A stretch of 64,000 nt of DNA from an uncultured Flavobacteriales bacterium (GTDB taxonomy: Bacteria; Bacteroidota; Bacteroidia; Flavobacteriales; BACL11), in NCBI GenBank assembly GCA_905181635.1, contig CAJIYM010000004.1, positions 142,264 to 206,263 on the forward strand. The letters run 5' to 3'. The translations under genes were made by a program, and so were the position numbers. The notes under the pieces were generated by a model. That model worked only from the letters and a program-made list of their open reading frames with translations. It was not told where the DNA came from and searched no databases. Positions 31,811-50,705 of this stretch are shown here, piece by piece (the stretch's first letter is position 1; every line of letters begins with the position of its first letter).

Positions 31811-32481
31811 GGACTTTTTCTTCCAGCAACAAAATCCTTTAAATAATAAGGCTCAAAATAAGCAACATCTTCAAAATCCTTGTTTTCAAATTTCTCTTTG
31901 GCTAAAATTCCTAAATTCTTTGCTGAAGGACAAATTCCTTCAACAAATTTAGCATTTTTATGACTTACTATTTCTTGACATTTTAAGGATCCATCTCCAA
32001 AGAATAATATTTCATTTCTTAAAAATTCTGCATAAGTATTTTCATCTACAACATCTGCTTGCACACCTCTAATTTGTTTAATATTCACATCATATAAGCC
32101 AGAAAAAACCTCCATTCTCCTTGCGTCAATCATAGGACAATAAATAGTTGAATTCATATTTTTAGCCATAGCAAAGGCCATAGCCTTTAAAGTAGAAATA
32201 GCGATTAATGGAATATCTAAAGCATAACACAGTCCTTTGGCTGTTGAAGTTCCAATACGTAATCCAGTATAAGAGCCAGGACCCATACTTAAGGCGACTG
32301 CATCAACATTATTTAAAGTAATATTAGCTAAATCAATAACATCTTTAATAAACAAGGTAAGCTGCTCAGCATGAGTGTAATCATCTGAAATATGCTCCTT
32401 TTCAGCTATAACTATTCCATCACTAAATAATGCAATAGAGCAGTTTTTAGTAGCTGTTTCTATTCCTAAAATCAGGGCCAT
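31807..32481 (-). CDS. tsaB: tRNA threonylcarbamoyladenosine biosynthesis protein TsaB
   Basis: Partner of TsaD in making t6A at position 37 of ANN-decoding tRNAs. The 224-residue product has the ASKHA start ILGIETATKNCSIALF and the TsaB segment ALSMGPGSYTGLRIGTSTAKGL. It lacks the metal-binding His pair of TsaD, as expected for TsaB. The start ATG shares one base with the stop of the outer-membrane barrel gene, so this housekeeping gene is at the end of the glycan gene train. The 3' end overlaps the helicase gene by 4 bases. Confidence 0.92.
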   Translation of the reverse strand: MALILGIETATKNCSIALFSDGIVIAEKEHISDDYTHAEQLTLFIKDVIDLANITLNNVDAVALSMGPGSYTGLRIGTSTAKGLCYALDIPLIAISTLKAMAFAMAKNMNSTIYCPMIDARRMEVFSGLYDVNIKQIRGVQADVVDENTYAEFLRNEILFFGDGSLKCQEIVSHKNAKFVEGICPSAKNLGILAKEKFENKDFEDVAYFEPYYLKDFVAGRKSP

Positions 32482-34088
32482 TAAATGTCGTAATAATGAT
32501 TAAATAAATCGCTCTTAATTCCAAAATTAATAAATTGAGTTTGTAATTCTTCATCCTCATTTTTAAAATCGCGTAAAGTAACACCTAGATTTATTTTGAG
32601 ATTCGTTTTTTGATTAACAATATAAGAAATATTGAAAATTTTAATATTAACTGTTGTTAAATTACCTTGATACATCTCAACACCAAAGTCATAAGGTCTA
32701 TCTCTATAATTATCATAAACATCATTTCCATATGAGGCAGGATCACCATCAATATTATCTCCATATTTTAAAGAAATTATTTTACCATCAATTACAAACT
32801 TTTTCCATTTGTAATTTAAAATAACTAAGAATTCAGAAAAGTTAGCTCCTAAGGGGTGAGCAAGAGGTTGATTATAATGAGCATAATTCTGTTGAGGATT
32901 AAAATGAGAATAAGTATATGGCCTAGCCAGATTGCACTCAGTTTGCAGAGTTAAATTATCTATACTAAATGCATTAAATATTTTAAAGCCTAATTGATAA
33001 GCAAACTTATTAGCCCAATAACCATTATTAGATTTTATTTGCTCTAAAGTAAATTCATCTAGCAATAACTGCCCATACAAATAAGATGAAAAAGGTAATT
33101 TATATTTTAAATTTACACCAACTAAAACGTTACCAGAAGACCCTACAGAATATTCTACTGGCCTAAGCATTACTATTGGATTCAAATAATTAACATCAAA
33201 TCCACTGCTTCCTGGAGCATGATTCATTCTCCAAATAACAGATTCGAATAATGAAATATTTAATTTTTTAGTAGCATTAATACTTAAGTAATGAGATGAC
33301 ATATATTTCTTAGCATAACCCATCACATCATAATTAACTATACCATTATCTGTAAAATAATTAATATCCTGTAACTCAGTATACAGATTAGTGTATTGCA
33401 CTTTCCAGAAACTAGTCTGCAATCTTAAATATGGATAATTGAAAGTGTTATCTGAAAGTAATAATGAACGATACCCGTCTCCTATAAAATGTTTTCCATG
33501 ACCAAACTGTACTGCAAACATTTTACTAGGCCTGTACGATACATAGCCTGATGACATTGCATAATCAAATCCTGTTTCTTTAAAAGATCTTGCATATCCC
33601 TGTCCAGGGACAACTAGATTTTCCCGAATTTGAGCGTCTAGATAATCAGGAAATATAGATTGATTTTCAGCAAAAGAACTGAAAAAAGATATTTTTTTAC
33701 CTAAATCACCTTCTATAACAAAACCCCTAGTATTTGTAAATGTATTTTTTTCCTGAATAAATTCTTTTCCAGATGTTAAATTTATAATTGGTGAAGCAGT
33801 TACCCTGTAATCCTTTCCGCTTAAGATGATTAGATGCTCTGAAAGTATTTTTCTTAAATAACAATTAGAATAATTTGTTTGCACTTGTGATTCAATAATA
33901 GAATCGACATCAAAATTAAAATCTGATTTTACAATGGGTTTAAAGGAAGTATGCAAATCTGACTCTTCAGCATATATTATCTCATTAAAATTTGAGGAAT
34001 AACTATTTCCTAACATTAAATTAGCATGCTGAGCATTCAAATTGAAAATACTAAACGAAAAGAAAAAGAAAAAAGGAAAAAACCTCAT
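32481..34088 (-). CDS. Wzi/RemB-like outer-membrane beta-barrel protein
   Basis: A 535-residue outer-membrane protein with a signal peptide (to about 19, ending LNAQ). The region YVSYRPSKMFAVQFGHGKHF, then GDGYRSLLLSDNTFNYPYLRLQ, resembles the capsule-assembly Wzi family and the related Bacteroidota gliding protein RemB. Wzi binds nascent capsule at the cell surface. The rest alternates amphipathic strands and aromatic girdles. It directly follows the WecA-like transferase (stop and start touch at 34088), which supports a role in surface assembly of the glycan made by this locus. Choosing between Wzi and RemB needs a profile search. Confidence 0.72.
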   Translation of the reverse strand: MRFFPFFFFFSFSIFNLNAQHANLMLGNSYSSNFNEIIYAEESDLHTSFKPIVKSDFNFDVDSIIESQVQTNYSNCYLRKILSEHLIILSGKDYRVTASPIINLTSGKEFIQEKNTFTNTRGFVIEGDLGKKISFFSSFAENQSIFPDYLDAQIRENLVVPGQGYARSFKETGFDYAMSSGYVSYRPSKMFAVQFGHGKHFIGDGYRSLLLSDNTFNYPYLRLQTSFWKVQYTNLYTELQDINYFTDNGIVNYDVMGYAKKYMSSHYLSINATKKLNISLFESVIWRMNHAPGSSGFDVNYLNPIVMLRPVEYSVGSSGNVLVGVNLKYKLPFSSYLYGQLLLDEFTLEQIKSNNGYWANKFAYQLGFKIFNAFSIDNLTLQTECNLARPYTYSHFNPQQNYAHYNQPLAHPLGANFSEFLVILNYKWKKFVIDGKIISLKYGDNIDGDPASYGNDVYDNYRDRPYDFGVEMYQGNLTTVNIKIFNISYIVNQKTNLKINLGVTLRDFKNEDEELQTQFINFGIKSDLFNHYYDI

Positions 34089-35140
34089 TATTTTAATTTA
34101 TATTTAATCATGTAGAAGATAATAAGCCACAATAAAAAACTAAACAAAGTTAATATCGCAATACTGAAATTTACGTTGATATTAAATATTATAAGAACAT
34201 ATGTAAATAAAATAACAATTACTGAAACCACATACAATATTAAACTAGTATATCTATGTCCAGCACCTAAATCAATTAAAGCATGATGAACATGATCTCT
34301 TGATGCAGTTAAAGTTCCATTACCATTTAATGCTCTAGCAATAAAAACTCTCAAAGAATCAAAAAGTGGAACTGCTAATATTGAGATTGCTAATAAAGGA
34401 CCTATATTAGGCAGTGAATAGTTATCATTTACTAGCCCGTATTTAATACAATTAATTGCTAAAACAGATAAAATCATCCCAACAACTAAAGAACCTGTAT
34501 CTCCCATAAATATTCTGGCAGGAAAAACATTGAACTTTAAAAATCCAACTAAAGCACCTGATAAAGTAAAAGCAATTAAGGCTATATTATTTTGCTCCAT
34601 TATTAAGGCAATAGCTCCAAATGAAAGAGATGAAATCAAACCTATCCCACCGGCTAAACCATCAATGCCATCTATTAAGTTAAACGCGTTTGTAATAACA
34701 ATTACTACAAAAATAGTAAAAGATACACTTGCCCAAATTGGCAAATCATGCACCCCTAAAACTCCATGCATACTATCAATTTGAAGATCGCCAAGAAAAA
34801 TTAAAATTAGAGTAGCTAAGATCTGGCCAATTAACTTTTTGAAAGCTGTAATAACTCGTAAATCATCAATAAGACCAACTATAAAAACAATTAAAATACT
34901 CACTAAAATGAACTGAATATTTTCGAAATTATCTGTCCAAAATAATAATGAGCAAATAAAACCAGTAAAAATAGCAATACCGCCAAAAAAAGGTGTGCTA
35001 ACTTTATGAGATGATCTGTCTCCTGCAGTATCTAATAAATTTAATTTTTTTGCGAAATGTATAAGCTTAGGAATAGCAATATAGCTAATCAACAATGCAG
35101 AAATGAAAGAATATAAAATATTTAAATATGGCGTAAACAT
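34088..35140 (-). CDS. WecA/TagO-like undecaprenyl-phosphate sugar-1-phosphate transferase
   Basis: Polytopic enzyme that moves a HexNAc-1-phosphate from a UDP-sugar to undecaprenyl phosphate, starting a lipid-linked glycan. About 350 residues and ten to eleven helices. Family motifs are present: [33 protein letters not shown] and the loop RDHVHH. This loop fits WecA/TagO better than the peptidoglycan MraY. The frame extends to a GTG at 35182; I prefer the ATG at 35140 ([11 protein letters not shown]), which starts at the first membrane helix. It lies in the glycan locus and is its likely initiating enzyme. Confidence 0.88.
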
Positions 35141-35250
35141 TATAATAATTTTCTCAAAAATAATATTATTATTTAATAACACATACTAATTTAGTAAAAT
35201 GAAAGTTATTTTTATTAAAATAAATTGTCATTTTAATTTACAAATTATCT

Positions 35251-35745
35251 TTACAAACATATAGTACTACACCATTTGGATAATGTATATTCATTATCCA
35301 CTTTTACACTAGTCAAACCCATCTTATTTCCTGCTTGTATATCCGTATACGAGTCTCCAATCAAATATGATTGAGATAATTTTATTTCTGGAAAATCAAT
35401 CATTGCTTGCTCTATCATACCAGGATTTGGTTTACGACAGTTGCAATTTTCAGAAGATAAATGAGGGCAATAATATATCTTATCTATTACTCCACCATTT
35501 TTTTTTAATTCACACAACATATATTCGTGTAAAACACATAAGTCCTTATCTGACATTATTCCTTTTGCAATTCCCTGCTGATTAGTTACAATAAGAATAC
35601 GTTTAAATATTTTTGAAAGTTTTGATATAGAATCTTTTACACCTGAAATAAACTTAAACTGGTCAATATTTTTAATATACTCACCATCTAATTTTAAATT
35701 TATTACGCCATCTCTATCTAAGAAAAGAGTATCTAGATTATGCAT
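35251..35745 (-). CDS. gmhB: D-glycero-D-manno-heptose 1,7-bisphosphate 7-phosphatase
   Basis: HAD-family phosphatase in nucleotide-activated heptose synthesis. The sequence shows the HAD nucleophile motif LFLDRDGVIN, VTNQQGIAKG, the GmhB zinc loop (CPH then CNCRKP) and IGDSYTDIQAG. The start is set at ATG 35745, within the GATGCATAA that also carries the gmhA stop. An upstream start at 35766 would add seven residues. About 164 residues. A gap of about 110 bases follows to the WecA-like gene, AT-rich with no clear signal. With gmhA it forms half of the heptose pathway; the kinase/adenylyltransferase step is not in the window. Confidence 0.9.
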   Translation of the reverse strand: MHNLDTLFLDRDGVINLKLDGEYIKNIDQFKFISGVKDSISKLSKIFKRILIVTNQQGIAKGIMSDKDLCVLHEYMLCELKKNGGVIDKIYYCPHLSSENCNCRKPNPGMIEQAMIDFPEIKLSQSYLIGDSYTDIQAGNKMGLTSVKVDNEYTLSKWCSTICL

Positions 35746-36319
35746 CTGGAAACATTTCTTGCTCAATCAATTGACAAACAATATGTCCAACTAGAATATG
35801 TGCTTCTTGTACTCTTGGCGTGTCGTCAGAAGGAACGCAAATCATAATATCACAAATATCCCGCATAGCACCACCATTTTTTCCTGTAAAACCAACAGTT
35901 TTCATTCCTAATTCATTAGCTTTTTCAATTGCCTTAACCACATTAGGAGAATTACCTGAAGTTGATATTCCTATAAGAATATCTCCATTTTTACCAGCAG
36001 CCTCAACCATTCTTGAATAAGTGGCTTCATAACCATAATCATTTGCTACGGCAGTCATAAAAGATGGATTTACATGTAGTGCCTCAGCATACAAAGGAGG
36101 ACGGTCAGCATAAAACTTTCCGCTTAACTCAGCTGCAATGTGCTGGGCATCAGAAGCACTACCTCCATTTCCACAAAAAAGCATTTTTTTATCTGATTGG
36201 AAAGCAATTACACTTTCAGCAACAATTTGCTGAATATTAGCTTTTAAATGATCATTCTGAAAAATGCTAGTGTAATTTTTAATAGCACTTTTCATACATT
36301 TTTCTATTCTACTTTTCAT
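35738..36319 (-). CDS. gmhA: Sedoheptulose-7-phosphate isomerase
   Basis: Converts sedoheptulose 7-phosphate to D-glycero-D-manno-heptose 7-phosphate, the entry to heptose for LPS core or surface glycans. The 193-residue SIS-domain protein has the GmhA motifs FCGNGGSASDAQHIAAEL, ANDYGYEATYSRMVEA and GISTSGNSPNVVKAI. It is followed by gmhB with an 8-base overlap. A good promoter element lies just upstream at 36334-36341, so gmhA, gmhB and the genes below may also be expressed apart from the upper locus. Confidence 0.94.
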   Translation of the reverse strand: MKSRIEKCMKSAIKNYTSIFQNDHLKANIQQIVAESVIAFQSDKKMLFCGNGGSASDAQHIAAELSGKFYADRPPLYAEALHVNPSFMTAVANDYGYEATYSRMVEAAGKNGDILIGISTSGNSPNVVKAIEKANELGMKTVGFTGKNGGAMRDICDIMICVPSDDTPRVQEAHILVGHIVCQLIEQEMFPDA

Positions 36320-36333
36320 CTTTATTGTTTTTA

Positions 36334-36341
36334 CAAAAATA
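36334..36341 (-). promoter_or_regulatory. Internal -7 promoter element upstream of gmhA
   Basis: On the minus strand this reads TATTTTTG, an exact TAnnTTTG match, in the 29-base gap between the GT4 stop and the gmhA start. It could separate gmhA-gmhB-wecA-like-wzi-like-tsaB from the upper glycan genes. Confidence 0.45.
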
Positions 36342-36348
36342 CAACTTT

Positions 36349-37494
36349 TTATAATGATAGATACGCTTGCAATGTCTGTCTTCCAATATCAACCCAATCA
36401 TATTTCTTTTTTATTAACTCAACTCCCTTAACTCTTACTTTCTCCATCAACACCTCATTAATCAATATACTATTTAACTTATTAGTTAAGTCACTCACAT
36501 TTTCAGTCTTAAATACGAAGCCATTTTCATTATTAGAAATTATTTCTGTCAAAGGGGGTAAATCAGAGACTAAAGCAGGACGCTCAAAACTTAAAGTCAT
36601 CATAAGTACGCCACTCTGATAAATTTTTTTGTACGGAAGAACAACTAAATCTGAAGCGCAGTAATAATGCTCCACATTTTCTTGCTGAATAAATTTAGTA
36701 TGTAGTAGCACATAGTCTGATAAATTATTTTCATCAATAATATTTTGATATACAGAAAAATCATTCTCCCAAGGTTTCCCCGCAATCACTAATAAAACAT
36801 CTGGATTTTTCTCTACAACACCTTTCAAGGCAGATAATAAAATCTCTAAACCTTTAACTTTTTTTATCATACCAAAAAATAATAATACTCTTCTATTATT
36901 TGGAATAGCTAGTATCTTTCTAGATTTCTCTTTATTAAATTGAATATTAATAAACGGAATATAGTTCCCATGCGGAACAATAGAAATATATGGTTCTAGA
37001 TTAGTATTAACATTTATAATCTCTGACTTACTAAACTGATTATGAGTTATAATTCTTTCCGACAATTTATAAATCAGATTCGTAATAATTAATGAATTAG
37101 ATGAATTGGAAAAAGAACTAACATCATGTACGGTTAACACTACTTTTCCAAATAGTATTTTGACAAAGAGTAAGTTAAACAGGACTAAAAAATTAGTATA
37201 AAAAATATGAAAATGAAAAACAGAAATTCCTGAAAATCTGGCGTGAAAAACTGAAAAAACTGTACCTAAAATCCAATTAATACCACTAGTAATTCTGAAA
37301 CCATTTTTAAATATGTTTTTATAAAAAGCAAAAAACTTGACTCCGCTTATTTTAGGGTCAGCAGTTTCGTTATTTGTGTACAGACTTACATCAACACCAT
37401 TATTAACCAAGCCAATTGCCTGCCCGAAGGCATAAAAATGAAATGACCCTCCATGAGCACCCAATGTATCTATAATCGCTACTTTTCTATTCAT
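36349..37494 (-). CDS. Glycosyltransferase family 4 (GT-B fold)
   Basis: A 381-residue cytosolic transferase with a two-Rossmann GT-B layout. The N-terminal acceptor domain starts VAIIDTLGAHGGSFHFY. The C-terminal donor domain carries RVLLFFGMIKKVKGLEILLSA, VLLVIAGKP and FERPALVSDLPPLTEIISN with the GT4 Glu that contacts the nucleotide sugar. Sugar and linkage cannot be read. It lies two bases after the GT2 gene in the glycan locus and presumably adds one residue of the lipid-linked unit. Confidence 0.88.
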   Translation of the reverse strand: MNRKVAIIDTLGAHGGSFHFYAFGQAIGLVNNGVDVSLYTNNETADPKISGVKFFAFYKNIFKNGFRITSGINWILGTVFSVFHARFSGISVFHFHIFYTNFLVLFNLLFVKILFGKVVLTVHDVSSFSNSSNSLIITNLIYKLSERIITHNQFSKSEIINVNTNLEPYISIVPHGNYIPFINIQFNKEKSRKILAIPNNRRVLLFFGMIKKVKGLEILLSALKGVVEKNPDVLLVIAGKPWENDFSVYQNIIDENNLSDYVLLHTKFIQQENVEHYYCASDLVVLPYKKIYQSGVLMMTLSFERPALVSDLPPLTEIISNNENGFVFKTENVSDLTNKLNSILINEVLMEKVRVKGVELIKKKYDWVDIGRQTLQAYLSL

Positions 37495-37496
37495 TA

Positions 37497-38405
37497 TTAT
37501 TTAATTAAGCCTTGAAAATAAGATTTATTAATCAACAACCAAGTTGAAATATTTTTTCTAATCTGAGGATTTACAATAAATTTAATATTGTTTTTTAAAA
37601 ATAACCAAGCAATAAAAGCATAAGAAAACAAACCACCAATTTTCTTCAGAAAATAAATATGATTTTTAATATTTTGTTGTAAAAAGAAATTTCCTCTATA
37701 AATTTTTTTTTCATCTTTTTCAAAGGATTTTGTTAAACTCCCAACTTTATGATAGAACTCTACATGAGGATAATAAAGTATTTTATGCCTACCATCTCTC
37801 AATACTCTGTATAAAAAATCAGTGTCATCAAAATAAACAAAATACTTTTCATCCATTAATCCAATATCCTGAAATACCTCTTTTTTAACTAGTAAACAAC
37901 AAGTTGGAGCATATTCCACATTAATAATTTCATTATATTGACCTTCATCCAACTCCTTCATACCTCTGTGTAATGGCACATATCCTTTCTCTTTTATAAA
38001 CCAACTGCCAGCGTACCAAATTTGATTTGGGTTATCATAGTACATTATTTTTGGACTAACCAAACTAGATTTATCTTTAATCTGAATCTTAATTAATTTT
38101 TCAATTAAAGAGCTTTCAAATTCGACATCATTATTTATAATTAAAAGCTGATCACAACCATCCAAAATTGCTTTTCTAATTCCTTGATTATTTGCCACAG
38201 CAACTCCTAAATTTTTAGAATTTTTAACAACCTGTAACCTGTTATCCTTTTCGTTTTTTAATATTGAAAGCGTTAAATCAGATGAAGCGTTATCAATAAC
38301 ATATAAAATTAAATTTGAATGTGCCTGTTTCCATACGCAATCCAAAAACGGTCTCAAAACATCAGCCGAATTATAAGTAATAGTAACTAGGGCTATTTTA
38401 TCCAA
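37497..38405 (-). CDS. Glycosyltransferase family 2 (rhamnosyltransferase-like)
   Basis: A 302-residue GT-A transferase. The nucleotide-binding start is IALVTITYNSADVL, then VIDNASSDLT, NLGVAVANNQGI and LIINNDVEF, where NND replaces the DxD metal motif as in many rhamnosyl- and related GT2 enzymes, and YFVYFDDTDFLYRVLRDG in the acceptor part. A C-terminal hydrophobic stretch (FSYAFIAWLFLK) may associate with the membrane. It overlaps the acyltransferase gene by 8 bases. Confidence 0.88.
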   Translation of the reverse strand: MDKIALVTITYNSADVLRPFLDCVWKQAHSNLILYVIDNASSDLTLSILKNEKDNRLQVVKNSKNLGVAVANNQGIRKAILDGCDQLLIINNDVEFESSLIEKLIKIQIKDKSSLVSPKIMYYDNPNQIWYAGSWFIKEKGYVPLHRGMKELDEGQYNEIINVEYAPTCCLLVKKEVFQDIGLMDEKYFVYFDDTDFLYRVLRDGRHKILYYPHVEFYHKVGSLTKSFEKDEKKIYRGNFFLQQNIKNHIYFLKKIGGLFSYAFIAWLFLKNNIKFIVNPQIRKNISTWLLINKSYFQGLIK

Positions 38406-38883
38406 CCCGTTTGATATTTACTGCAGAAGCCCCAACCATAACAGCTCCTGGCTCAACATCTTTTGTTATTACTACATTTGCCCCAATTACAGCTCCCTTT
38501 CCAATAGTAACTGGTTTTGCAATTACGCAGTTCATACCAATAAAAACATCATTCTCAATGATCACTTTACCTACGTAGAATCTAAAATGATAATCAGGGT
38601 GATCTGAAAGCTTTTCTGTGTCAATAAAATGAGTAATTATCTTAGTGCCCGTTGTTATGATACATCTATCTCCAATAAAAATATTAGATGGATATATACT
38701 ATCAATAAGAACATCTTCTCCAATAAAAACTGTGCTAACATTATGAAAATTAACACCTCTCAACTTGTGTATTCTTGCCCTTGCATATCCTGAAAGCAAA
38801 CTACTTTTTGCTATTACGTGCAAAATCTTATTAAGAAATCTTCTAACTCCATATTTTTTTTGCGATTCTATTTCTTTACTCAT
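38398..38883 (-). CDS. Left-handed beta-helix acyltransferase (WcaF/maltose acetyltransferase-like)
   Basis: A 161-residue hexapeptide-repeat protein of the LbH acetyltransferase class. Imperfect [IV]GxxxxI turns run from about 50 (VFIGEDVLIDS, IFIGDRCIITTGTKI, VIIENDVFIGMNCVI) to the closing coil GAVIGANVVITKDVEPGAV. Relatives O-acetylate sugars of surface glycans from acetyl-CoA. Here it probably acetylates a sugar of the locus product. Start and stop overlap the sulfotransferase and GT2 genes by 4 and 8 bases. Confidence 0.87.
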   Translation of the reverse strand: MSKEIESQKKYGVRRFLNKILHVIAKSSLLSGYARARIHKLRGVNFHNVSTVFIGEDVLIDSIYPSNIFIGDRCIITTGTKIITHFIDTEKLSDHPDYHFRFYVGKVIIENDVFIGMNCVIAKPVTIGKGAVIGANVVITKDVEPGAVMVGASAVNIKRVG

Positions 38884-39716
38884 TTTAAATATATATTTTT
38901 AAATTTAAAATAATCCTTATTTATGTATTGCTCTAATAAAAGTCTATCAACTTCTTTAAGTTGCTTTTTTTCAGCTGTCTTATAAAATAAAAACTTAAGA
39001 TAATCAACTAACTGTTGTGGGATAATTATTTTAAGTTTTGAAGTTAAGTTTCTATTATGTTGCAATGTTTTTGAAATAATATTTCTTGGTGTTTTATTAG
39101 CATTTACTCTCTCTTGATCTTTAGAGTATTCTAAGTTATCAAGTTCTAAAAAGCTACACAATTTATCAATATCATCATTTATATTCTCTAGTTGCGCTAT
39201 GAAAATCTGATTTTCATCAAAATATTCTAAATAATTGCTTACTTGTTTATAGTATAAACTATTTTCTATATATTGATGAATAAATTTCTTATGCTTATTT
39301 TTTTTATTTACTAAATACTCATTCAATGACTCTGTTGCATAACCCATTCTTTTATCCATATTGTAATGAGAAAAAGCCCTGAGAATTGGATCTCTAACGA
39401 TTATAATTATTTTTGCCTTAGAATTAAACTCATGTAATTTCTTTGGAATAGAAGGATAGGCAAAATATGATACGCTACCATCAACTAAATATTTAAATGA
39501 TTTCCCCTTTTTAAATGCCTTTAAATAATCATTCTCATTTCTAATTTTATAATCTTTATAATATGAGTTATATGTTAATTCATCATAAGAGAAATGATTA
39601 ATTTCCTTAAGTTCTTTTGTAGTAAAAACATCTTTATGTTTTTTTAAAATTGACCAAAGAAGAGTAGATCCTGATTTTGGTGCGCCAACTAAAAATAAAT
39701 TTGGTTTATCTTTCAT
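38880..39716 (-). CDS. PAPS-dependent sulfotransferase (fourth of the locus)
   Basis: A 278-residue sulfotransferase that would move sulfate from PAPS to a glycan hydroxyl or amine. The 5'-phosphosulfate loop is VGAPKSGSTLLWSILKKH at about 8-25. The 3'-phosphate site is IIIVRDPILRAFSHYNMD, with the expected Arg and Ser. It is the most divergent of the four: it sits apart from the tandem trio, is shorter, and lacks their hWT-like C-terminus. It overlaps the glycosidase-like gene by 11 bases and the acyltransferase by 4. Confidence 0.88.
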   Translation of the reverse strand: MKDKPNLFLVGAPKSGSTLLWSILKKHKDVFTTKELKEINHFSYDELTYNSYYKDYKIRNENDYLKAFKKGKSFKYLVDGSVSYFAYPSIPKKLHEFNSKAKIIIIVRDPILRAFSHYNMDKRMGYATESLNEYLVNKKNKHKKFIHQYIENSLYYKQVSNYLEYFDENQIFIAQLENINDDIDKLCSFLELDNLEYSKDQERVNANKTPRNIISKTLQHNRNLTSKLKIIIPQQLVDYLKFLFYKTAEKKQLKEVDRLLLEQYINKDYFKFKNIYLK

Positions 39717-41115
39717 TATTTATAGTTACTAAGGTTATGCTATATGGCTTTATCGTAAGTTCAGATATGTTTTCTAAATCAGAAATAGTATAATTAATAT
39801 CTCCCTTCTTTTTATTGTTACAATATAATTCTTTTCCAAAATATTCCTTAAGTGTTATTTGCGATAACACTTGCTTAAAAGATATTTTATGAAATTCACT
39901 TGACCAATTAATTATGTATCTATACTTCTCATTATTATTCTCCTCACATGAATAAAGATAGCAAAAATTAGTAACTCTAGTTTTATCAATTGTTAAATTT
40001 TTTTGATTAAACATTTCAGAAAGCATCTGAAAAGGATGAAATGTTGTGTGAGTTTCTGTGAGTCCAGACCTATTCATTAATACTGATCCCGAAACATCTC
40101 TTCCTGCTAAATTATGATAAGTAGCAAGCTCTATGTTTGAGAAGTTCTTAGAAACAGAAATTTCTAGTAAGTAATTTGCAACATATATAGCTTGAAACAA
40201 TGTATTTCCAGTAATTTTTGACATTTGAAGATTCCATTCAGTGATCCAAATAGCTTTCTCAGAAAAAATCGAATTATTTAATCCTATCTCTTCTGGATAA
40301 ATATTATTAAAATAATTTATAATTCTTTCTCTATATAAAAAGAATGCTTCTCTCTGGCTTTTTCCTTCAGGTATTTCAGAAACCATTTTACCATCTTTAT
40401 CTCTTCCTTTTGTGACTTTAGCATAAGAATGTATAATAATTGCATCGTAAAAATCTTCTTTTGCTAATAATTCATTCCAATAGTTATGTCTTTCTTGACC
40501 TCTTGTAACTGGAGCGGCTACAACTCCTAAAAGAATATTCGGAAAAATACTTTTTAATTCAATTGCTAAATTTTTAGTTAGTTGAATATATTTATCACCA
40601 TCAATTAAATGCATATAACTTCTATTAGAAAGCTCACTTCCTAATTCGATGCCAACTACATTTATATTGTTTTCAACAAGCTTATCTATAATTTTGATTA
40701 TTTCATCGCTTGATGCTGTAAGAATATTTACATCTACAATTACCTTAGAATTTAAATACTTTGCTAAATAGATAAAGTCATAGATATAATTTTTATTTAT
40801 TTTTTTCTTTCTTTCATAATTTTGAATACCAGTTACTCGTTTTGGGAGCACTCCTTTGTGGTATTTATTCACTTCATTAATATTTATTCCATAACCAACT
40901 CCATCAGGATGATAGAAATTACCAAAACCTCCAGGAAATCTTAGCAAATTAGGAGAAAGTTGAATGACCTGATTCATAAAAATTGAATCATAAACATTAT
41001 GGAAGGTAAATGTAGTATTTGTACTAAACCCAAACACATTAGGCCTAATAGAATTCTGAGACAGCGAGCACACAGCAATTAGACTTAAACAAACTATTAA
41101 TGTTAAATTTTTCAT
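39706..41115 (-). CDS. Secreted glycoside-hydrolase-like protein (clan GH-A, GH51/GH79-like)
   Basis: A 469-residue protein with a Sec signal peptide (to about 20, CSLSQ) and a TIM-barrel glycosidase look: NLLRFPGGFGNFYH (57-69), as in arabinofuranosidase and heparanase families, GIELGSE (155-161) at the acid/base position, and WITEWNL with the nucleophile-type Glu (293). A small beta domain ends the chain. The usual Asn-Glu before the acid/base Glu is Ser-Glu here. If active it could trim or release the sulfated glycan outside the inner membrane; if not, it could bind it. The family assignment is by motif only. It starts 26 bases after the epimerase gene. Confidence 0.65.
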   Translation of the reverse strand: MKNLTLIVCLSLIAVCSLSQNSIRPNVFGFSTNTTFTFHNVYDSIFMNQVIQLSPNLLRFPGGFGNFYHPDGVGYGININEVNKYHKGVLPKRVTGIQNYERKKKINKNYIYDFIYLAKYLNSKVIVDVNILTASSDEIIKIIDKLVENNINVVGIELGSELSNRSYMHLIDGDKYIQLTKNLAIELKSIFPNILLGVVAAPVTRGQERHNYWNELLAKEDFYDAIIIHSYAKVTKGRDKDGKMVSEIPEGKSQREAFFLYRERIINYFNNIYPEEIGLNNSIFSEKAIWITEWNLQMSKITGNTLFQAIYVANYLLEISVSKNFSNIELATYHNLAGRDVSGSVLMNRSGLTETHTTFHPFQMLSEMFNQKNLTIDKTRVTNFCYLYSCEENNNEKYRYIINWSSEFHKISFKQVLSQITLKEYFGKELYCNNKKKGDINYTISDLENISELTIKPYSITLVTINNER

Positions 41116-41141
41116 ATATTTTAAAAAAATAAAAATATAAC

Positions 41142-42272
41142 TTATTTAATCAATCCTTTAACTTTTAATTTTTTAATTGAAGCCTCATATTCATCTTGCA
41201 CAATATCTTGCGTTTGCACCCATTCAACAAATTTAGCAACTCCAGCTTTAAAAGTAAACTTAGGATTAAAGCCTAAAGTATTTTTGATTTTTGATAAATC
41301 GGCATAATTATGACGAATGTCACCTAAACGATATTTACCACTTATCTTAATTTCTACATCTGAATTATATAGACCCTTTAAAGTATTTGCTAATTGCAAA
41401 ACTGTTACTGCAAATCCAGAACCTACATTAAATATTTGATGGTTAGCTTCTTTCTTTTCTAAAGCTAAAACAGTTGCATCTACAGCATCATCAATGAAAA
41501 TAAAATCTCTACTTTCAGCTCCATCTTCATAAATATCAATATCATTTCCATTCAATAACCTTGTAGAAAAAATAGATAAAATTCCTGTATAAGGATTACT
41601 TAAAGATTGTCCAGGACCATAAACATTCTGATACCTCAATGCAACAGCAGGAATACCTAGAGTTTTTCCCATTAGGAGAATCATCTGTTCTTGCTGTAAT
41701 TTTGTAATACCATAAATAGAAGACGGAATAGCCTTTGAATCTTCATCTGTAGCTAATAATTGTAAAGGTTCATTACATTTGTTGCAAAATAAATTAAATT
41801 TCCCCTGAGACAAATCTATTTCCTTCCTTGGTTCAGGAAAAACTTCTGCATCATTCTTGCATAAATACTTACCTTCTCCGTAAATAGAACGTGAAGAGGC
41901 AACAATCATCTTTTTTATGCTGTGACGCTCATTGGCTAAAATATCTAATAAGTGTGTAGTTCCTAAAATATTAACTTCACTGTATCTAGCTATCTCATAC
42001 ATAGATTGCCCAGTACCTGTTTCAGCAGCCAAATGGATTACAATATCTTGCCCATTTAAGGCTTTTTTCCAATCAGATTTATTACTGACATCCCCTAAAA
42101 TAAAAGTAACTTGATTTTTGATTGAATTATATAAGACAGAATCCTGATTCTCACCATGGATTTGCTTTGACAAATTATCAAGTACAGTAATATTGTATCC
42201 TTTAGAGACTAATTTTACCGCTAAGTGTGAGCCAATAAATCCTGCTCCACCTGTAATTAAAATATTCTTCAT
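41142..42272 (-). CDS. NAD-dependent sugar epimerase (SDR) with cysteine-bearing insert, dTDP-L-rhamnose 4-epimerase-like
   Basis: A 376-residue extended short-chain dehydrogenase acting on a nucleotide sugar. It has the Rossmann motif GGAGFIG (8-14), the catalytic YGITK (187-191), and RYQNVYGPGQ and RDFIFIDD as in GalE-type epimerases. Between about 134 and 175 there is an insert, YGEGKYLC to CNKC (Cys138, 163, 166), seen in the dTDP-L-rhamnose 4-epimerase group and likely a small metal knob. The start is ATG 42272, overlapping the polymerase stop as ATGA; the frame extends 45 residues further upstream into that gene without homology. It probably supplies one sugar of the glycan. Confidence 0.82.
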   Translation of the reverse strand: MKNILITGGAGFIGSHLAVKLVSKGYNITVLDNLSKQIHGENQDSVLYNSIKNQVTFILGDVSNKSDWKKALNGQDIVIHLAAETGTGQSMYEIARYSEVNILGTTHLLDILANERHSIKKMIVASSRSIYGEGKYLCKNDAEVFPEPRKEIDLSQGKFNLFCNKCNEPLQLLATDEDSKAIPSSIYGITKLQQEQMILLMGKTLGIPAVALRYQNVYGPGQSLSNPYTGILSIFSTRLLNGNDIDIYEDGAESRDFIFIDDAVDATVLALEKKEANHQIFNVGSGFAVTVLQLANTLKGLYNSDVEIKISGKYRLGDIRHNYADLSKIKNTLGFNPKFTFKAGVAKFVEWVQTQDIVQDEYEASIKKLKVKGLIK

Positions 42273-43531
42273 CCTATTTGCTGTTTGTGTGATGTCATCT
42301 TGTAATAAACATATGTAAATCCAGAGATAATGAAAATAAAGAAAAAAGGCTTTAACAATAAGGGTTCTGACATAACTGATACAACCATTATAAACATCCA
42401 AAGCCATTTTTTATCTTTAATTATTTGCTGCTTGAAAAACATATAAAGCAATAATATAGCTGTAGGAAATCCCATTGCAGCCATTAAAAATGTAATGGAA
42501 TTACTACTGCCTTTATCTGTACTACTTACTTTTGATTCCACTCCGGCTTTTTCTTGAAGAGAATTTAATGAAGATGAAAAAACAAAAAACTCTTGCCTCA
42601 TGCTCTGAAATTGCTCCACATCTGAACCTATACCTGTTAATGGATGCTCAAGGGCAATGAAAAAGGGTTGAACTAAATCAAAATATCTTTTTTGAAAAGA
42701 CCATTCCTTTTCACCCAGAATTTTCTCCTCAACATTAAAACTAAAGATCATATATATTGGAATACCTAATGTCAACACAAACGGCCTTAGCCATTTGTTT
42801 GCATTATACTCATTAAATAAATAAACTGTAAATTGAATCAATAATAATGCTAAACCTGTAGTAGAGTAAGTTGTTAAGATTAGAAAAGCAGTTAAAAACA
42901 ATAAAAATTTTCTTTTTTTAATAACAAAAGCCTCTAGAAAGAAAAACATATTTAAAAAAACTTGCAAAACACCTGGCTCCCAAAATAAACCTTGATTTCG
43001 ACAAAATTCTAATCCATACAATGAAGCAGTAGCTCTCTCTGTTGAATAGAAAAAAATATTCATAAATGTTTCACATTCATGATATTCAGAAATAATAACA
43101 ATCAAATTATCCTTCAAAAAAAAGTATGCAATAAAATTAAATAAAGAGTGAAAAACGATTAAGCCAAGGGATATATACAAACTTCCTGTTAGCTGCTGAT
43201 GAGTTCGATTATTCTTAAAATGCAACAATAATAAACTCGCCAAAGTAACTGTTAATAAATGAAACAAATACTTATTTACTATTTGCTCTGTAATTGAAAA
43301 ATAATAATTAATAATACCTATAAAAAATAATGTAGAAAAAGTAATAACTATAGAATTGAAAGTGCTTTTTTTCCATTTATCTTCCATAAAAATAAGTACA
43401 AATAAAATGAATAACAAAAAAAATAGTGAAGCAATATTTCTATTAAATACAAATAACAGACCGCCAGTACTTAAAATTAACATTAACATTAAAATAGCAT
43501 CTACACATTTTTTTCTTAAGCTATACATCAT
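42269..43531 (-). CDS. O-antigen/exopolysaccharide polymerase-like membrane protein (Wzy/WaaL class)
   Basis: A roughly 420-residue polytopic protein with about eleven to twelve hydrophobic helices and one larger loop (about 290-340, FFIALEHPLTGIGSDVEQFQ and on). The HPLTGIGS segment is like the conserved Wzy_C loop of O-antigen polymerases and ligases. Sequence in this class is poorly conserved, so the call rests on topology, this motif and its place in the locus. The start is set at ATG 43531, overlapping the sulfotransferase stop; 43540 and 43528 are also possible. It would join lipid-linked repeat units in the periplasm, or ligate them to an acceptor. Confidence 0.78.
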   Translation of the reverse strand: MMYSLRKKCVDAILMLMLILSTGGLLFVFNRNIASLFFLLFILFVLIFMEDKWKKSTFNSIVITFSTLFFIGIINYYFSITEQIVNKYLFHLLTVTLASLLLLHFKNNRTHQQLTGSLYISLGLIVFHSLFNFIAYFFLKDNLIVIISEYHECETFMNIFFYSTERATASLYGLEFCRNQGLFWEPGVLQVFLNMFFFLEAFVIKKRKFLLFLTAFLILTTYSTTGLALLLIQFTVYLFNEYNANKWLRPFVLTLGIPIYMIFSFNVEEKILGEKEWSFQKRYFDLVQPFFIALEHPLTGIGSDVEQFQSMRQEFFVFSSSLNSLQEKAGVESKVSSTDKGSSNSITFLMAAMGFPTAILLLYMFFKQQIIKDKKWLWMFIMVVSVMSEPLLLKPFFFIFIISGFTYVYYKMTSHKQQIG

Positions 43532-44421
43532 GATTTCCAATGCATTTTTCTATTCAGTAATTGTTCTAATTTATTAATCTCTTCAACAAAGTACAGTTGA
43601 TATATCTCATCTTTCTGAATATTATTTAGCGGTTTTGGAGTAAAAGAACTAATACTCGCTCTTTGAATCTTGTTTTTTAAAATTTGTCTAAACTTTAAAG
43701 ATGGAATTAGCAATTTAATTATAGATCTCCACCAGCCAGATCTCTTCAGCAATCTCTTTATCCAAATAAATTTAGCTACGCTAGCAGGGTTACTCTTTAT
43801 GTTGTAATTAAGTTCAGGGATATAATCAATGCCTAAAAAAGAAAATATCTTTTTAATACTAGCAGTTCTATTGGCAACAAATTCCTGCTCAAAATGAATA
43901 AACAAAAACTGCTCTATTGGAAAATATTCAAGATAATTACTTATCATTCTATAATAACAACCCTGACTAACATAAGAGCATCTTAATTCTGCTAAATAGT
44001 CATCTTTCAGACGAGCATCATTTATTCTAACCTTTTCCTTAGAAAGTGCTTTTAAAAATCCTTCTAACTCATACTCGTCTCTTTTAGAATGTAAATAATG
44101 CGAAAATGCTCTATCCACAGGATTTCTTAATATAACTAAAAATTTAATGTTCTCACCTAAGCTTGTAAAAATACGTTTTGCCGCATTTTTTTCGTATAAA
44201 TAAGAAGGAGTGAAATCCATAATTACTTTCTGCTGTTTAACACTATTAAAATAGGTTTTATCATACCAATCTATTCCATTACAATAATTAGAAGGGATGT
44301 CAAAATAATGAGGCTCTTTAAAAGAAGGAGCATAGACATCTGGGTGTTGCCTTAACAAATCGTACAAAGTAGTCGTCCCTGATTTAGCTGCGCCTATACA
44401 CATGAAGTTAGGTAAATTCAT
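43528..44421 (-). CDS. PAPS-dependent sulfotransferase (third of the tandem trio)
   Basis: A 297-residue sulfotransferase. The PAPS 5'-phosphosulfate loop is IGAAKSGTTTLYDLLRQHP at about 7-25, with the PHYFDIP segment following. The 3'-phosphate site is FLVILRNPVDRAFSHYLHS, with both Arg and Ser present. The C-terminus ends LNRKMHWKS, the short tail shared with its neighbours. It is related to heparan-sulfate-type (Sulfotransfer_1) enzymes. Probably cytosolic: no signal peptide or membrane helix. Overlaps by 4 bases at its start and 4 at its end make it part of one tight operon. Confidence 0.9.
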   Translation of the reverse strand: MNLPNFMCIGAAKSGTTTLYDLLRQHPDVYAPSFKEPHYFDIPSNYCNGIDWYDKTYFNSVKQQKVIMDFTPSYLYEKNAAKRIFTSLGENIKFLVILRNPVDRAFSHYLHSKRDEYELEGFLKALSKEKVRINDARLKDDYLAELRCSYVSQGCYYRMISNYLEYFPIEQFLFIHFEQEFVANRTASIKKIFSFLGIDYIPELNYNIKSNPASVAKFIWIKRLLKRSGWWRSIIKLLIPSLKFRQILKNKIQRASISSFTPKPLNNIQKDEIYQLYFVEEINKLEQLLNRKMHWKS

Positions 44422-45305: not shown

Positions 45306-46213
45306 TATTTTGTCCAGTGTGTTAAATCGACATTCAATAAGTCAGACAATTTCTTAACATCATCTTCAAAAAATTTATTCAACTTTATTCTTGTATTCTC
45401 CTTCATTGGCAAAACTTTATCAGTTGAGATAGAGATCAATGTCTCTCTAACAAATTTTTTAAAAAAATTTGGAGAAACTTTTTTTAAAACCGATTTTAAT
45501 GAGCTATTTTTCATAATAAAATGTTTCATTTTTTCATTCTTCCATCTTGTTCCGCCAACATTATGATGACTCAAAAAATCAATATTAGTGTCTATTGTTG
45601 TACCTAGAAAATCAAATACTTTTTTAATTTCCCCGTGAGTATCATCTCTGAAATCTTCATAAAAGACAATATGTACATCTTTAAAATTTACTTTATACTC
45701 TCTTACCATATCATAATACAATCCCATTTCCCTGTACATAACCATAGGAGTTAGACTAAATTCTTCATCCAATCTTCCTTCCTCAATTTCCAAAGCTTCT
45801 TCAAAAGAATTCTGCTCTTTAAAACCTCTGGAAACATGCTGGAATGCAGAATAAGCTCTATCTGTAGGATTACGTAGCATGATAATAATTTTCACATTCT
45901 CGCCAAGATATTTTTTTATATTACCTATTGCATGCTTATAAAAATATAAATACAAAACCGTAGATTCTCCAATAAATACTTCATCTTTCACATTATTAAA
46001 AAGAGATTTATATTCTTCCCAGTCCCAAACTCCATTATGTAATCTATGTTTAACTAAGTCTTTTATTAAGAATCTTGGTTCTTTCACTTTCATACCTTTT
46101 TTGTCGTACGAAGGCATAAAGACTTCAGGATGTTGATTTAAATAATTATGCAAAGAAGATGTACCACTTTTTGCAGCTCCTACAATCAAAAAATTTGGTA
46201 ACTTATCTTTCAT
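45305..46213 (-). CDS. PAPS-dependent sulfotransferase (first of the tandem trio)
   Basis: A 302-residue sulfotransferase. The PAPS loop is VGAAKSGTSSLHNYLNQHPE (about 11-30) and the 3'-phosphate motif is IIIMLRNPTDRAYSAFQHVS. It ends DLTHWTK. It carries a short basic insert after the first motif (SYDKKGMKVKEPRFL) that the neighbour lacks, perhaps part of acceptor binding. It overlaps the flippase gene by 11 bases. Confidence 0.9.
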   Translation of the reverse strand: MKDKLPNFLIVGAAKSGTSSLHNYLNQHPEVFMPSYDKKGMKVKEPRFLIKDLVKHRLHNGVWDWEEYKSLFNNVKDEVFIGESTVLYLYFYKHAIGNIKKYLGENVKIIIMLRNPTDRAYSAFQHVSRGFKEQNSFEEALEIEEGRLDEEFSLTPMVMYREMGLYYDMVREYKVNFKDVHIVFYEDFRDDTHGEIKKVFDFLGTTIDTNIDFLSHHNVGGTRWKNEKMKHFIMKNSSLKSVLKKVSPNFFKKFVRETLISISTDKVLPMKENTRIKLNKFFEDDVKKLSDLLNVDLTHWTK

Positions 46214-47567
46214 GTTTTACAAATGGGATATAAAAGGTGTAAAATCCAAACTTCTTTTTAATCACTAAAACCATACTTAAATTCCAAACTATTAAACTAG
46301 ACATAGAAGCTATTGCAGCCCCATTAATTCCATATATTGGTATTAACATTAAATTTAATAGTATATTTACAATAGCTCCAAAAAAGAGGATTTTTGCATA
46401 TACATTTTGATGTCCAGTCATTTGTAAAATATTACCTACTGATCCTGACAAGGAACTAATCAATCTCCCGCAAGATAAAAAGATAAATGCTGTAGCACCT
46501 ATTTTAAATTTATCACCAAACAAACCTAAAAAGAACTCAGGCAAAATAAAGAAAATCAAAGCAAGCGGAACAGTAGTCCAGAATATCATTTTAGTAGATT
46601 GATGAATCACTTTTTCCAATCCTTTAACATCATTTTTAGCAAACATCTCTGCAAATTTTGGAGAAGCAATGCTATTAATAGCCATGAGTGAAACTGCTGC
46701 AAACATAGAAAGTTTAAATGCGGTATAATAGACACCAACCTCTTCTATATTAGTTGTTATTCCATTTACAACATTTGGCGTGTCAATTGCTCCCAACATT
46801 AATTTATCAGTCCAAGCCATAATAAATTGAACAGATTGAGCAAACATTAGGGGAATAGAAATCTTGAATAAAGTAGAATAACTCATTACCTCCTTTTCTG
46901 CACTATCTTTTCCTTTTGATCTTTTATTTAACCAATATCTAAATGAAATAAATGACAATAACGATACAATTAAAACACTGATTAAATAAGCATAAACAGG
47001 AACATCTGAAGTAGTAAAAAATTGATATAATATAACAATAGATATTAAGGAAAATAATGCTTGAGCCATCCTATAGAAAAAAGAAAATTCTGCAATTCTC
47101 TTTAATCCCCTTAAACTCTGATAATGCAACATGAAAAAAATCATTGGAAGTACAAAAAATGCATTTATCTGAATATATAATGGATTTGCATTTATCAATT
47201 CTGAGATTGGAACCGATAAAAAATACATTAGCACAGAAGCAACAATTGAACTGATTGAGAGAACAGAGATAACTTGTTTTCGGAATTTGAAAATACTTGT
47301 CCATTTATCTTGTGAGGCAAAAGATGCTATAAAACGGATAGAAGTTGTATCCAATCCAAGTTTAGCTATAAGGGTGAATAATCTTAGAACTGCTATTGCC
47401 AGCACATAATCTCCCAGTCCTTTTGCTCCAAATAAATTTGCAATTACTAAAGTCAGTAGGTATCCAACTGTTAAACCTCCAAATCTTAAAATAAAAGATA
47501 TTCCTCCACCTTTTAAGAGTTCAGAAAAATCTCTATCTTCTAATACCTTTTGAAATATTTTTTTCAT
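46203..47567 (-). CDS. Wzx-like flippase (polysaccharide biosynthesis/MATE-like transporter)
   Basis: A 454-residue inner-membrane protein with about fourteen helices, starting with the family's amphipathic FSELLKGGGISFILRFGGLT. It has ISIPLMFAQSVQFIMAWTDKLMLG in the middle, a typical MOP-superfamily helix, and GAIVNILLNLMLIPIYGINGAAIAS near the C-terminus. Members flip undecaprenyl-diphosphate-linked glycan units to the periplasmic face. Position beside the sulfotransferases suggests sulfation occurs before flipping, on the cytosolic side where PAPS is. Confidence 0.9.
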   Translation of the reverse strand: MKKIFQKVLEDRDFSELLKGGGISFILRFGGLTVGYLLTLVIANLFGAKGLGDYVLAIAVLRLFTLIAKLGLDTTSIRFIASFASQDKWTSIFKFRKQVISVLSISSIVASVLMYFLSVPISELINANPLYIQINAFFVLPMIFFMLHYQSLRGLKRIAEFSFFYRMAQALFSLISIVILYQFFTTSDVPVYAYLISVLIVSLLSFISFRYWLNKRSKGKDSAEKEVMSYSTLFKISIPLMFAQSVQFIMAWTDKLMLGAIDTPNVVNGITTNIEEVGVYYTAFKLSMFAAVSLMAINSIASPKFAEMFAKNDVKGLEKVIHQSTKMIFWTTVPLALIFFILPEFFLGLFGDKFKIGATAFIFLSCGRLISSLSGSVGNILQMTGHQNVYAKILFFGAIVNILLNLMLIPIYGINGAAIASMSSLIVWNLSMVLVIKKKFGFYTFYIPFVKHER

Positions 47568-47571
47568 AAAA

Positions 47572-48363
47572 CTAATTCACTAAAAACCATGGATTAAGTA
47601 AGTTTTCTTTATTATAAATTACATCTTCAGTTGAATTATATTGTTTAACAGAAAAACCTGCATATTTAGCAATTGCATGTCCTGCCCCTGTATCCCATTC
47701 CATTGTTGGCGAATACCTAGGATATGCATCTGCCTTTCCCTCTGCAACCATACAAATCTTTAATGATGAGCCAACTGCCATTATTTCTATATTACCATAC
47801 TTCTGTTTCATTTGATCAAAAAACACTTCTGTTTCATCTGACATATGAGAACGGGAACCAACAATCACATGATTTAATCTTTTATGATCAATTGGCAATG
47901 AATCGGAAAGCTCAATTAATGTCTCTAGACTTTTAATTACTGAATTGGTGCTTACCTTGTAAGAGCCTAACCCCTCCATAGCAAAATACAATTCTTCTTT
48001 TACAGGAACATAAATTACCCCCATAATTGGGTCTCCATTATGAATCAATGCTATATTAACAGTAAACTCGCCATTTCTTCTTACAAATTCTTTAGTTCCA
48101 TCTAATGGGTCAACCAGCCAAAAATACTCCCAATCCTTTCTTTGTGAATAAGTAATTTCAGCACCCTCTTCACTTAAAATAGGAATTTCTGTGCCTGACA
48201 AATAATCTTCTATTACGTCATTACAATTTTTATCTGCCATAGTTAGAGGAGATTTATCATCCTTGTGTTCAACGATAAAATTAGAAGCATATACATCCAT
48301 AATAGAATGACCTCCTTCAATAGAAGCGTTAATAGATTTTATCAATAGTTCCTTAAAATTCAT
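47572..48363 (-). CDS. cysQ: 3'(2'),5'-bisphosphate nucleotidase CysQ
   Basis: Removes the 3'-phosphate from PAP, the by-product of sulfotransfer, which otherwise inhibits sulfotransferases and exonucleases. The 263-residue product has the inositol-monophosphatase-fold metal sites: SEEGAE, LVDPLDGTKEFVRRNGEFTV and the C-terminal MEWDTGAGHAI. Within this gene train it most likely sustains the four sulfotransferases. It overlaps the deoC-like gene by 11 bases and precedes the flippase by four bases. Confidence 0.93.
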   Translation of the reverse strand: MNFKELLIKSINASIEGGHSIMDVYASNFIVEHKDDKSPLTMADKNCNDVIEDYLSGTEIPILSEEGAEITYSQRKDWEYFWLVDPLDGTKEFVRRNGEFTVNIALIHNGDPIMGVIYVPVKEELYFAMEGLGSYKVSTNSVIKSLETLIELSDSLPIDHKRLNHVIVGSRSHMSDETEVFFDQMKQKYGNIEIMAVGSSLKICMVAEGKADAYPRYSPTMEWDTGAGHAIAKYAGFSVKQYNSTEDVIYNKENLLNPWFLVN

Positions 48364-49093: not shown

Positions 49094-49105
49094 ATTTAAC
49101 AAAGC

Positions 49106-49113
49106 CAAATCTA
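49106..49113 (-). promoter_or_regulatory. -7 promoter element for the deoC-cysQ-wzx glycan operon
   Basis: On the minus strand this reads TAGATTTG, an exact TAnnTTTG match 13 bases before the ATG at 49093. It would drive the long minus-strand train. Confidence 0.5.
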
Positions 49114-49160
49114 AATAAAAAATCACACAACTAGTGCATTTAAAAATTGATAAAATTTCC

Positions 49161-49180: not shown

Positions 49181-49795
49181 ATGAAAGAATCTAAAGATAA
49201 TTTATTTCCAATTTTTAACGAAATTCTAAAAAAAGAGGAGAAAGAAATATTGTTAAAACAAAATGCAAAAGTAATCTGGATGACTGGACTTTCTGGTTCT
49301 GGGAAAACTACTATTGCCAAAGGAGTAGAAAGACATCTACATTCAATAGGTATTCTCAATCAACTTTTGGATGGAGATAATATCCGAGTAGGAATCAGTA
49401 ACAATCTTACTTTTTCTTCAGAAGACAGAGCTGAAAACATAAGAAGGATTTCAGAAGTAAGCAAGCTTTTTCTAAATTGCGGAGTAATAACTTTAAATTG
49501 TTTTGTAAGTCCAACAATTGAGATTAGAAATATTGCAAAAGAAATAATTGGAGTAGATAATTTTATTGAAGTATATATAAACGCTTCTGTTAATACCTGT
49601 GAAGAAAGAGATGTAAAAGGTCTCTATAGGAAAGCTAGAAATGGAGAAATCCAAGATTTTACAGGAATTAGCGCACCATTTGAAGCTCCTAAATCACCAA
49701 AAATAGAAATAAATACAAACCAGCTCTCCATTGATGAATCGGTACAGAAAGTTTTGGATTACATCTTGCCGATTATAAAAACAAGTAAAATATGA
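49181..49795 (+). CDS. cysC: Adenylylsulfate (APS) kinase
   Basis: Phosphorylates APS to PAPS, the donor for sulfotransferases. The 204-residue product has the P-loop GLSGSGKTT (36-44), LLDGDNIRVGISNNLTFSSEDR (the APS-binding DGD and NxxLxFS parts), RRISEVSKLF, and the KGLYRKARNGEIQDFTGISAPFE lid. It is a stand-alone kinase, not fused to CysN. It overlaps cysD by four bases (ATGA). It heads a three-gene operon divergent from the sulfotransferase train. Confidence 0.96.
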   Translation: MKESKDNLFPIFNEILKKEEKEILLKQNAKVIWMTGLSGSGKTTIAKGVERHLHSIGILNQLLDGDNIRVGISNNLTFSSEDRAENIRRISEVSKLFLNCGVITLNCFVSPTIEIRNIAKEIIGVDNFIEVYINASVNTCEERDVKGLYRKARNGEIQDFTGISAPFEAPKSPKIEINTNQLSIDESVQKVLDYILPIIKTSKI

Positions 49796-50697
49796 GTTCA
49801 TACAACTTAACACACTTAATGGAATTAGAATCGGAAGCAATTTTTATTATAAGAGAAGTGGCTGCACAGTTTGAAAAACCTGTGATGTTATTTTCTGGTG
49901 GAAAAGATTCTATCATTATGTTCCATCTTGCCAGAAAGGCATTTCATCCAGGAAAAGTTCCTTTTCCACTAATGCATATTGATACTGGTCATAACTTCCC
50001 AGAAACTATTGAATTTAGAGACAGATTAATAAAAGAAACAGGAGAAACATTAATTGTGAAATATGTTCAAGATTCAATTGACAAAGGAACTGCAGTCGAA
50101 GAAAGCGGAATAAATGCATCACGAAATGGATTGCAAACAATAACCCTTTTAGAAGGGATAGAGCAAGGAAAATATGATTGCGCATTGGGAGGAGCAAGAA
50201 GGGATGAAGAAAAAGCAAGAGCTAAAGAAAGATTCTTTTCCCACAGAGATGAATTTGGGCAATGGGACCCTAAAAATCAAAGGCCAGAACTTTGGAACCT
50301 GTTTAATGGAAAAAAGAAAATGGGAGAACATTTTAGAATATTCCCAATTTCTAATTGGACAGAAATGGATGTTTGGCAATATATATTACATGAAAAACTT
50401 GAGTTACCTTCATTATATTTTTCTCATAAAAGAGAAGTAGTAATCAGAAATGGAGTCTTACTTGGTAAATGCAACTACATACAATTAAAAGATAGTGAGA
50501 AATGGGTAGAAAAAAATATTAGATGTAGAACTATTGGAGATATGACTTGCACAGGAGTTACAGAATCAAATGCAGTAACTTTAGAAGAAATTATTGAAGA
50601 AGTAGCAACAACAAAAGTGACAGAGAGAGGAGGAAGAACTGACGACAAAAGATCTGAAGCAGCTATGGAAGATAGAAAAAAAGAAGGGTACTTTTAA
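49792..50697 (+). CDS. cysD: Sulfate adenylyltransferase subunit 2
   Basis: Catalytic subunit of ATP sulfurylase, making APS from sulfate and ATP. The 301-residue protein has the PP-loop SGGKDSIIMFHLARKAF (35-51), the RRDEEKARAKER stretch, GLQTITLLEGIEQG, and the typical end GGRTDDKRSEAAMEDRKKEGYF. It is coupled to cysC by overlap and followed by cysN after 8 bases. Confidence 0.97.
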   Translation: MSSYNLTHLMELESEAIFIIREVAAQFEKPVMLFSGGKDSIIMFHLARKAFHPGKVPFPLMHIDTGHNFPETIEFRDRLIKETGETLIVKYVQDSIDKGTAVEESGINASRNGLQTITLLEGIEQGKYDCALGGARRDEEKARAKERFFSHRDEFGQWDPKNQRPELWNLFNGKKKMGEHFRIFPISNWTEMDVWQYILHEKLELPSLYFSHKREVVIRNGVLLGKCNYIQLKDSEKWVEKNIRCRTIGDMTCTGVTESNAVTLEEIIEEVATTKVTERGGRTDDKRSEAAMEDRKKEGYF

Positions 50698-50705
50698 AAA
50701 AGATT

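Follow-up and report, generated by a model that had tools for sequence, protein, structure and literature searches.

Why would an operon that appears to assemble a sulfated polysaccharide also encode a protein with the fold of a polysaccharide-cleaving enzyme, and what does it mean that this protein carries serine where related enzymes carry the asparagine preceding the catalytic acid/base? The question is raised by a 64,000-nucleotide stretch of DNA from an uncultured Flavobacteriales bacterium, referred to here as the window.

Gene context of the hydrolase

The gene lies at 39706..41115 on the (-) strand, starts with ATG, and encodes a clan GH-A glycoside hydrolase-like protein of 469 amino acids, predicted to form a TIM barrel and a C-terminal beta-sandwich. 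Orthologs across the bacterial family are 36-48% identical to it, and the nearest relative is 93% identical. The dN/dS of that pair is about 0.12-0.18, which together with the ortholog identities indicates that the reading frame is not a chance one. The same ratio, with 57 of the 87 differences at third codon positions, points to purifying selection. A signal peptide is predicted by eye at residues 1-19 (41059..41115, (-)); residues 2-16 are helical in the structural model, and the hydrophobic N-terminus is common to all the aligned orthologs. Secretion to the periplasm is thus a prediction from inspection of the sequence. A T9SS sorting tail was found by Pfam neither in the window protein nor in its orthologs.

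The neighboring genes are on the (-) strand unless noted. The conserved upstream neighbor encodes an NAD-dependent sugar epimerase/dehydratase (41142..42275). Next to it are genes for a Wzy-like polymerase/ligase (42269..43540; PF04932, E 4e-5, below its cut-off), three sulfotransferases (43528-44421, 44418-45305 and 45305-46213, with PF00685 at 43531-44421, 44421-45305 and 45308-46213), a Wzx-like flippase (46203..47567; Polysacc_synt) and an inositol-monophosphatase family protein (47572..48363), which from its context is probably the PAP phosphatase CysQ. A further conserved operon gene at 48353-49126 resembles a DeoC-like aldolase by eye; Pfam gives it no match at E 0.001. CysC, CysD and CysN, which would activate sulfate to PAPS, are encoded on the (+) strand at 49181..51974; the Pfam families are observed, and the individual names follow order and family. 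On the other side of the hydrolase are a fourth sulfotransferase (38880..39716; PF00685 at 38883-39716), whose frame overlaps that of the hydrolase, and a hexapeptide-repeat acyltransferase (38398..38883), in place of which most other loci have a second sulfotransferase gene, gene 10. The same operon continues with genes for Wzi-like, Glycos_transf_4 (WecA-like), HAD phosphatase, SIS isomerase (GmhA-like), GT group 1 and GT2 proteins (32481..38405). SusCD-type genes are absent among the annotated operon neighbors, and Poly_export genes are located elsewhere in the genome. This gene content, with four sulfotransferases in all beside CysC/CysD/CysN, suggests a conserved Wzx/Wzy operon for a sulfated polysaccharide.

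Each of the 37 operon loci examined, two of which come from one genome, contains the hydrolase. Gene order is nearly constant: the hydrolase immediately follows the epimerase except in the outlying locus L084, and in many loci its frame overlaps neighboring frames, mostly by short stretches. Thirteen genomes of the family without a detected hydrolase are also without a detected Wzy, while two positive controls have Wzy; many of the family's genomes are incomplete, so this joint absence may partly reflect assembly gaps. Nine loci (L035, L040, L042, L043, L044, L046, L051, L100 and L101) have, between the two glycosyltransferase genes, an opposite-strand pair whose members look by eye like an MBOAT/AlgI-like O-acyltransferase and its AlgJ-like partner. 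In L084, from genome G098 in another family of the order, a gene that by eye resembles a polysaccharide deacetylase adjoins the hydrolase, which is more distant (about 32% identity) and has cysteine at position 160.

Fold, active site and family assignment

An AlphaFold2 model built with 25 orthologs has a mean pLDDT of 89.3 and a pTM of 0.89. The top Foldseek matches of the model are GH51 arabinofuranosidases (E 6e-20), followed by GH79 and GH39. VIA-align gives Z 30.1 to the GH51 structure 3ug3 (rmsd 3.3 A, 389 residues aligned), Z 28.6 to the bacterial heparanase 5bwi of GH79 (3.4 A, 378 residues) and Z 24.8 to human proheparanase (5la4). These matches extend over barrel and beta-sandwich, i.e. 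the full length, and on the strength of this predicted structure membership in clan GH-A is well supported. Model and profile alignment together agree with the clan pattern of a (beta/alpha)8 barrel, with the predicted acid/base glutamate after strand 4 and the predicted nucleophile glutamate at strand 7.

Three motifs mark the active site: LRFPGG (residues 58-63), GIELGSEL (155-162) and IWITEWNL (289-296). In profile-profile alignments (hhalign) against sets of GH51, GH39 and GH79 sequences from other genomes, Glu161 (40633..40635, (-)) falls on the glutamate of the Asn-Glu motif in all three families. Glu293 (40237..40239, (-)) falls on the GH79 nucleophile, with IWITEW over IWLTET, and near the nucleophiles of GH51 and GH39; the likeness to the GH39 profile is modest (hhalign probability 75%). 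Glu161, Glu293, His229 and Tyr231 do not vary among the 39 orthologs, whose median pairwise identity is 0.44. The first-pass annotation, made from the sequence, had proposed a GH51/GH79-like fold, these two glutamates as acid/base and nucleophile-type residue, a serine in place of the conserved asparagine, and a location among sulfotransferases; all four proposals hold up against the model, the alignments, the orthologs and the four PF00685 matches.

Asparagine directly before the acid/base glutamate is common, though not universal, in clan GH-A, and the position is strongly conserved in the GH51, GH39 and GH79 sets compared. In the window protein it is occupied by Ser160 (40636..40638, (-)), and none of the 39 orthologs has asparagine there. 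Whether homologs in sister loci keep the serine, which the first-pass annotation had proposed to check, has a mixed answer: 28 do, and the rest have arginine (4), threonine (3), glycine (2) or cysteine (2). With respect to the Asn224/Glu225 pair of GH79, the glutamate is present and the asparagine absent. Residue 160 covaries without exception with residue 59, an arginine in the window protein (40939..40941, (-)): Arg59 accompanies Ser, Thr or Cys160 (n=33), Ala59 accompanies Arg160 (n=4), and Ser59 accompanies Gly160 (n=2). The two forms without Arg59 all belong to loci of the acyltransferase type, and each forms one well-supported group on the tree, which makes two events rather than six.

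Distant relatives from other families of the order include some with ELGNE and some with ELGSE. Three of them (L030, L086 and L091) have ELGSE or EMGSE, so the operon orthologs are not alone in having serine at the asparagine position. Another, at L092:3997-5772 (-), has the canonical ELGNE together with a T9SS sorting tail (PF18962), unlike the tail-less operon form.

The window protein has no sequence match in Pfam, NCBIfam or PDB, and a profile of 25 orthologs has no match in PDB. It is without a match to the GH51 models PF22848 and PF06964; PF22848 was not found in its genome, and one ortholog matches PF06964 weakly (E 0.13). For GH79 (PF03662) and GH39 (PF01229) nothing exceeds the cut-off in the window protein or its orthologs. 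Glyco_hydro_cc (PF11790, GH128) matches 22 of 25 orthologs weakly and the window protein not at all; in the ten orthologs inspected the matches cover a short stretch around the nucleophile, the best scoring 21.0 bits against a cut-off of 21. The viral contigs searched yielded no relative, a plasmid search yielded a single weak Rhodococcus match, and a phylum-wide search outside the order gave weak N-terminal matches only. No one CAZy family is supported, and the protein is not a GH79 member. The sequence libraries searched give it no name.

Exchange of a three-gene decoration cassette

Drops in DNA identity to genus-mates delimit a swapped cassette of hydrolase, sulfotransferase and acyltransferase genes at 38404..41141 (-). 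Relative to genus-mate G012 (locus L041) the window is 76% identical over 35269-38404 and 84% identical over 41141-48375. Only two short stretches align between these flanks, and the gap comprises exactly the three genes, with sharp breakpoints where the epimerase gene ends and where the GT2 gene starts. The G012 hydrolase allele is 42% identical to that of the window and the cassette sulfotransferase 33%; instead of the acyltransferase, G012 has gene 10, a second sulfotransferase family (PF13469). The swap was noted across the window (38404-41141) and loci L041, L042, L043 and L040.

Pairs of loci with similar flanks were compared by cassette type. Where a locus with gene 10 plus sulfotransferase is paired with one with sulfotransferase plus acyltransferase, hydrolase identity is at most about 45%, even with flanks at 83%, whereas in same-type pairs it follows flank identity (r 0.83). 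The hydrolase therefore travels with the decoration genes and not with Wzy, and a cassette of the hydrolase and two modifying enzymes is exchanged whole between close relatives. Two other explanations were rejected. Wzy type does not drive hydrolase type, since G012 shares Wzy at 79% and differs in hydrolase; and the operon was not replaced horizontally as a whole in the window strain, since only the middle three genes break relative to G012.

Proposed function and comparison with known systems

We infer location, activity, substrate and physiological role together: the protein probably works in the periplasm as a catalytically competent retaining hydrolase of clan GH-A whose dedicated substrate is the sulfated polysaccharide of its own Wzx/Wzy operon. 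The polymer would be exported through the inner membrane and then cleaved in the periplasm by a retaining mechanism, in which Glu161 would act as acid/base and Glu293 as nucleophile. Cleavage would trim chain length, release the polymer from the assembly machine, or clear stray periplasmic chains. Loss of the conserved asparagine could cripple turnover, which counts against an active enzyme. Lost catalysis, which the first-pass annotation had allowed for, nevertheless appears unlikely, because the Glu161/Glu293 pair is invariant while the asparagine position varies among Ser, Thr, Cys, Gly and Arg. A GH-A-fold scaffold or chaperone that binds the sulfated polymer and has lost hydrolysis would fit a gene that lacks the clan asparagine in 39 of 39 orthologs and is tied to biosynthesis rather than catabolism. 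A pure binder, however, should have lost one or more of the two glutamates, His229 and Tyr231 in some lineages, and their retention at this level of divergence makes such a protein improbable.

The replaced asparagine, with residue 160 covarying with Arg59, leads us to propose that the -1 subsite is reshaped for the operon's own decorated sugar. A reshaped subsite with a varying 59/160 pair might also serve transglycosylation, in which the retaining mechanism moves chains onto a surface acceptor or cross-links them. Arginine mutants of GH51 enzymes, such as those at Arg67, have been made to favor this reaction. PDB entry titles include a crystallized Arg67 mutant of one GH51 enzyme, and the operon encodes a Wzi-like surface protein; no acceptor is known, however, and most orthologs keep Arg59, so we regard transglycosylation as unlikely. 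Least probable is a catabolic enzyme for foreign sulfated glycans that is in the operon by happenstance. Some sulfatases are encoded elsewhere in relatives, but the hydrolase is kept in 37 operon loci, was not found in genomes where Wzy was not found, is exchanged jointly with modifying enzymes, and has neither a T9SS tail nor SusCD-type genes among its annotated neighbors.

Work on heparanase informs on the role of the asparagine; little was found in the literature on it for GH51 or clan GH-A at large. In heparanase this residue, Asn224, contacts the substrate, and it does not vary at all among the GH79 enzymes that were compared (PMC9500389). It clashes with 2-O-sulfate, which is given as the reason that 2-O-sulfated uronic acids stay uncleaved (PMC6892829), so its loss may admit 2-O-sulfated sugars. 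By this analogy, the -1 sugar may carry a C2 substituent, as loss of the asparagine from an enzyme encoded among sulfotransferases would suggest. We offer tentatively the more specific reading of a GH-A family undescribed in the libraries searched, with a small residue or arginine in place of the asparagine. It would cleave the sulfated polysaccharide of its own operon where a residue bears a 2-O-sulfate or another C2 substituent, and co-exchange with the sulfotransferase and acyltransferase genes that determine the decoration would keep the hydrolase suited to it. Replacement at the pocket position that blocks sulfated sugars in human heparanase may thus have given an enzyme that acts on the cell's own coat. 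If so, the case would illustrate how bacteria fit the specificity of a hydrolase to the decoration of a capsule, and a glycosidase dedicated to a sulfated polymer of the cell's own making could serve as a tool to cut sulfated glycans with their sulfate still in place. Among bacteria, sulfated polysaccharides have been held in one paper to be exclusive to cyanobacteria (PMC8205485); the gene content here points to possible polysaccharide synthesis with several sulfotransferases in a lineage of Flavobacteriales.

Among known enzymes, the GH51 alpha-L-arabinofuranosidases (3ug3, 3s2c) are closest in fold (Z about 30) and share RFPGG, barrel plus beta-sandwich and both glutamate positions; the window protein differs in having no GH51 Pfam match, serine for asparagine, 13-17% identity and a place in a biosynthesis operon. 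The GH79 heparanases and beta-glucuronidases (5bwi, 5la4, 3vny) share fold (Z 24.8-28.6), glutamate pair, secretion (predicted for the window protein) and a sulfated-glycan context, but the window protein is without the Asn224 equivalent and a GH79 Pfam match. At the level of the locus, the synechan (xss) cluster of Synechocystis is likewise a Wzx/Wzy locus with sulfotransferases, but has two of these versus four here (plus CysC/D/N), and its published description names no hydrolase (PMC8205485). Hydrolase genes are known from other EPS operons, and PslG of Pseudomonas aeruginosa needs E165 and E276 for its role in Psl production (PMC9075953). Psl differs in being a polymer of mannose, rhamnose and glucose, not described as sulfated in the abstract of PMC11912335. 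PslG is co-transcribed with its polysaccharide operon, is located at the inner membrane and in the periplasm, and requires two catalytic glutamates; the window gene, too, encodes within a polysaccharide operon a hydrolase-fold protein that its sequence marks as secreted. These parallels suggest that hydrolases of biosynthesis loci, such as PslG, are the best functional analogs, ahead of heparanase.
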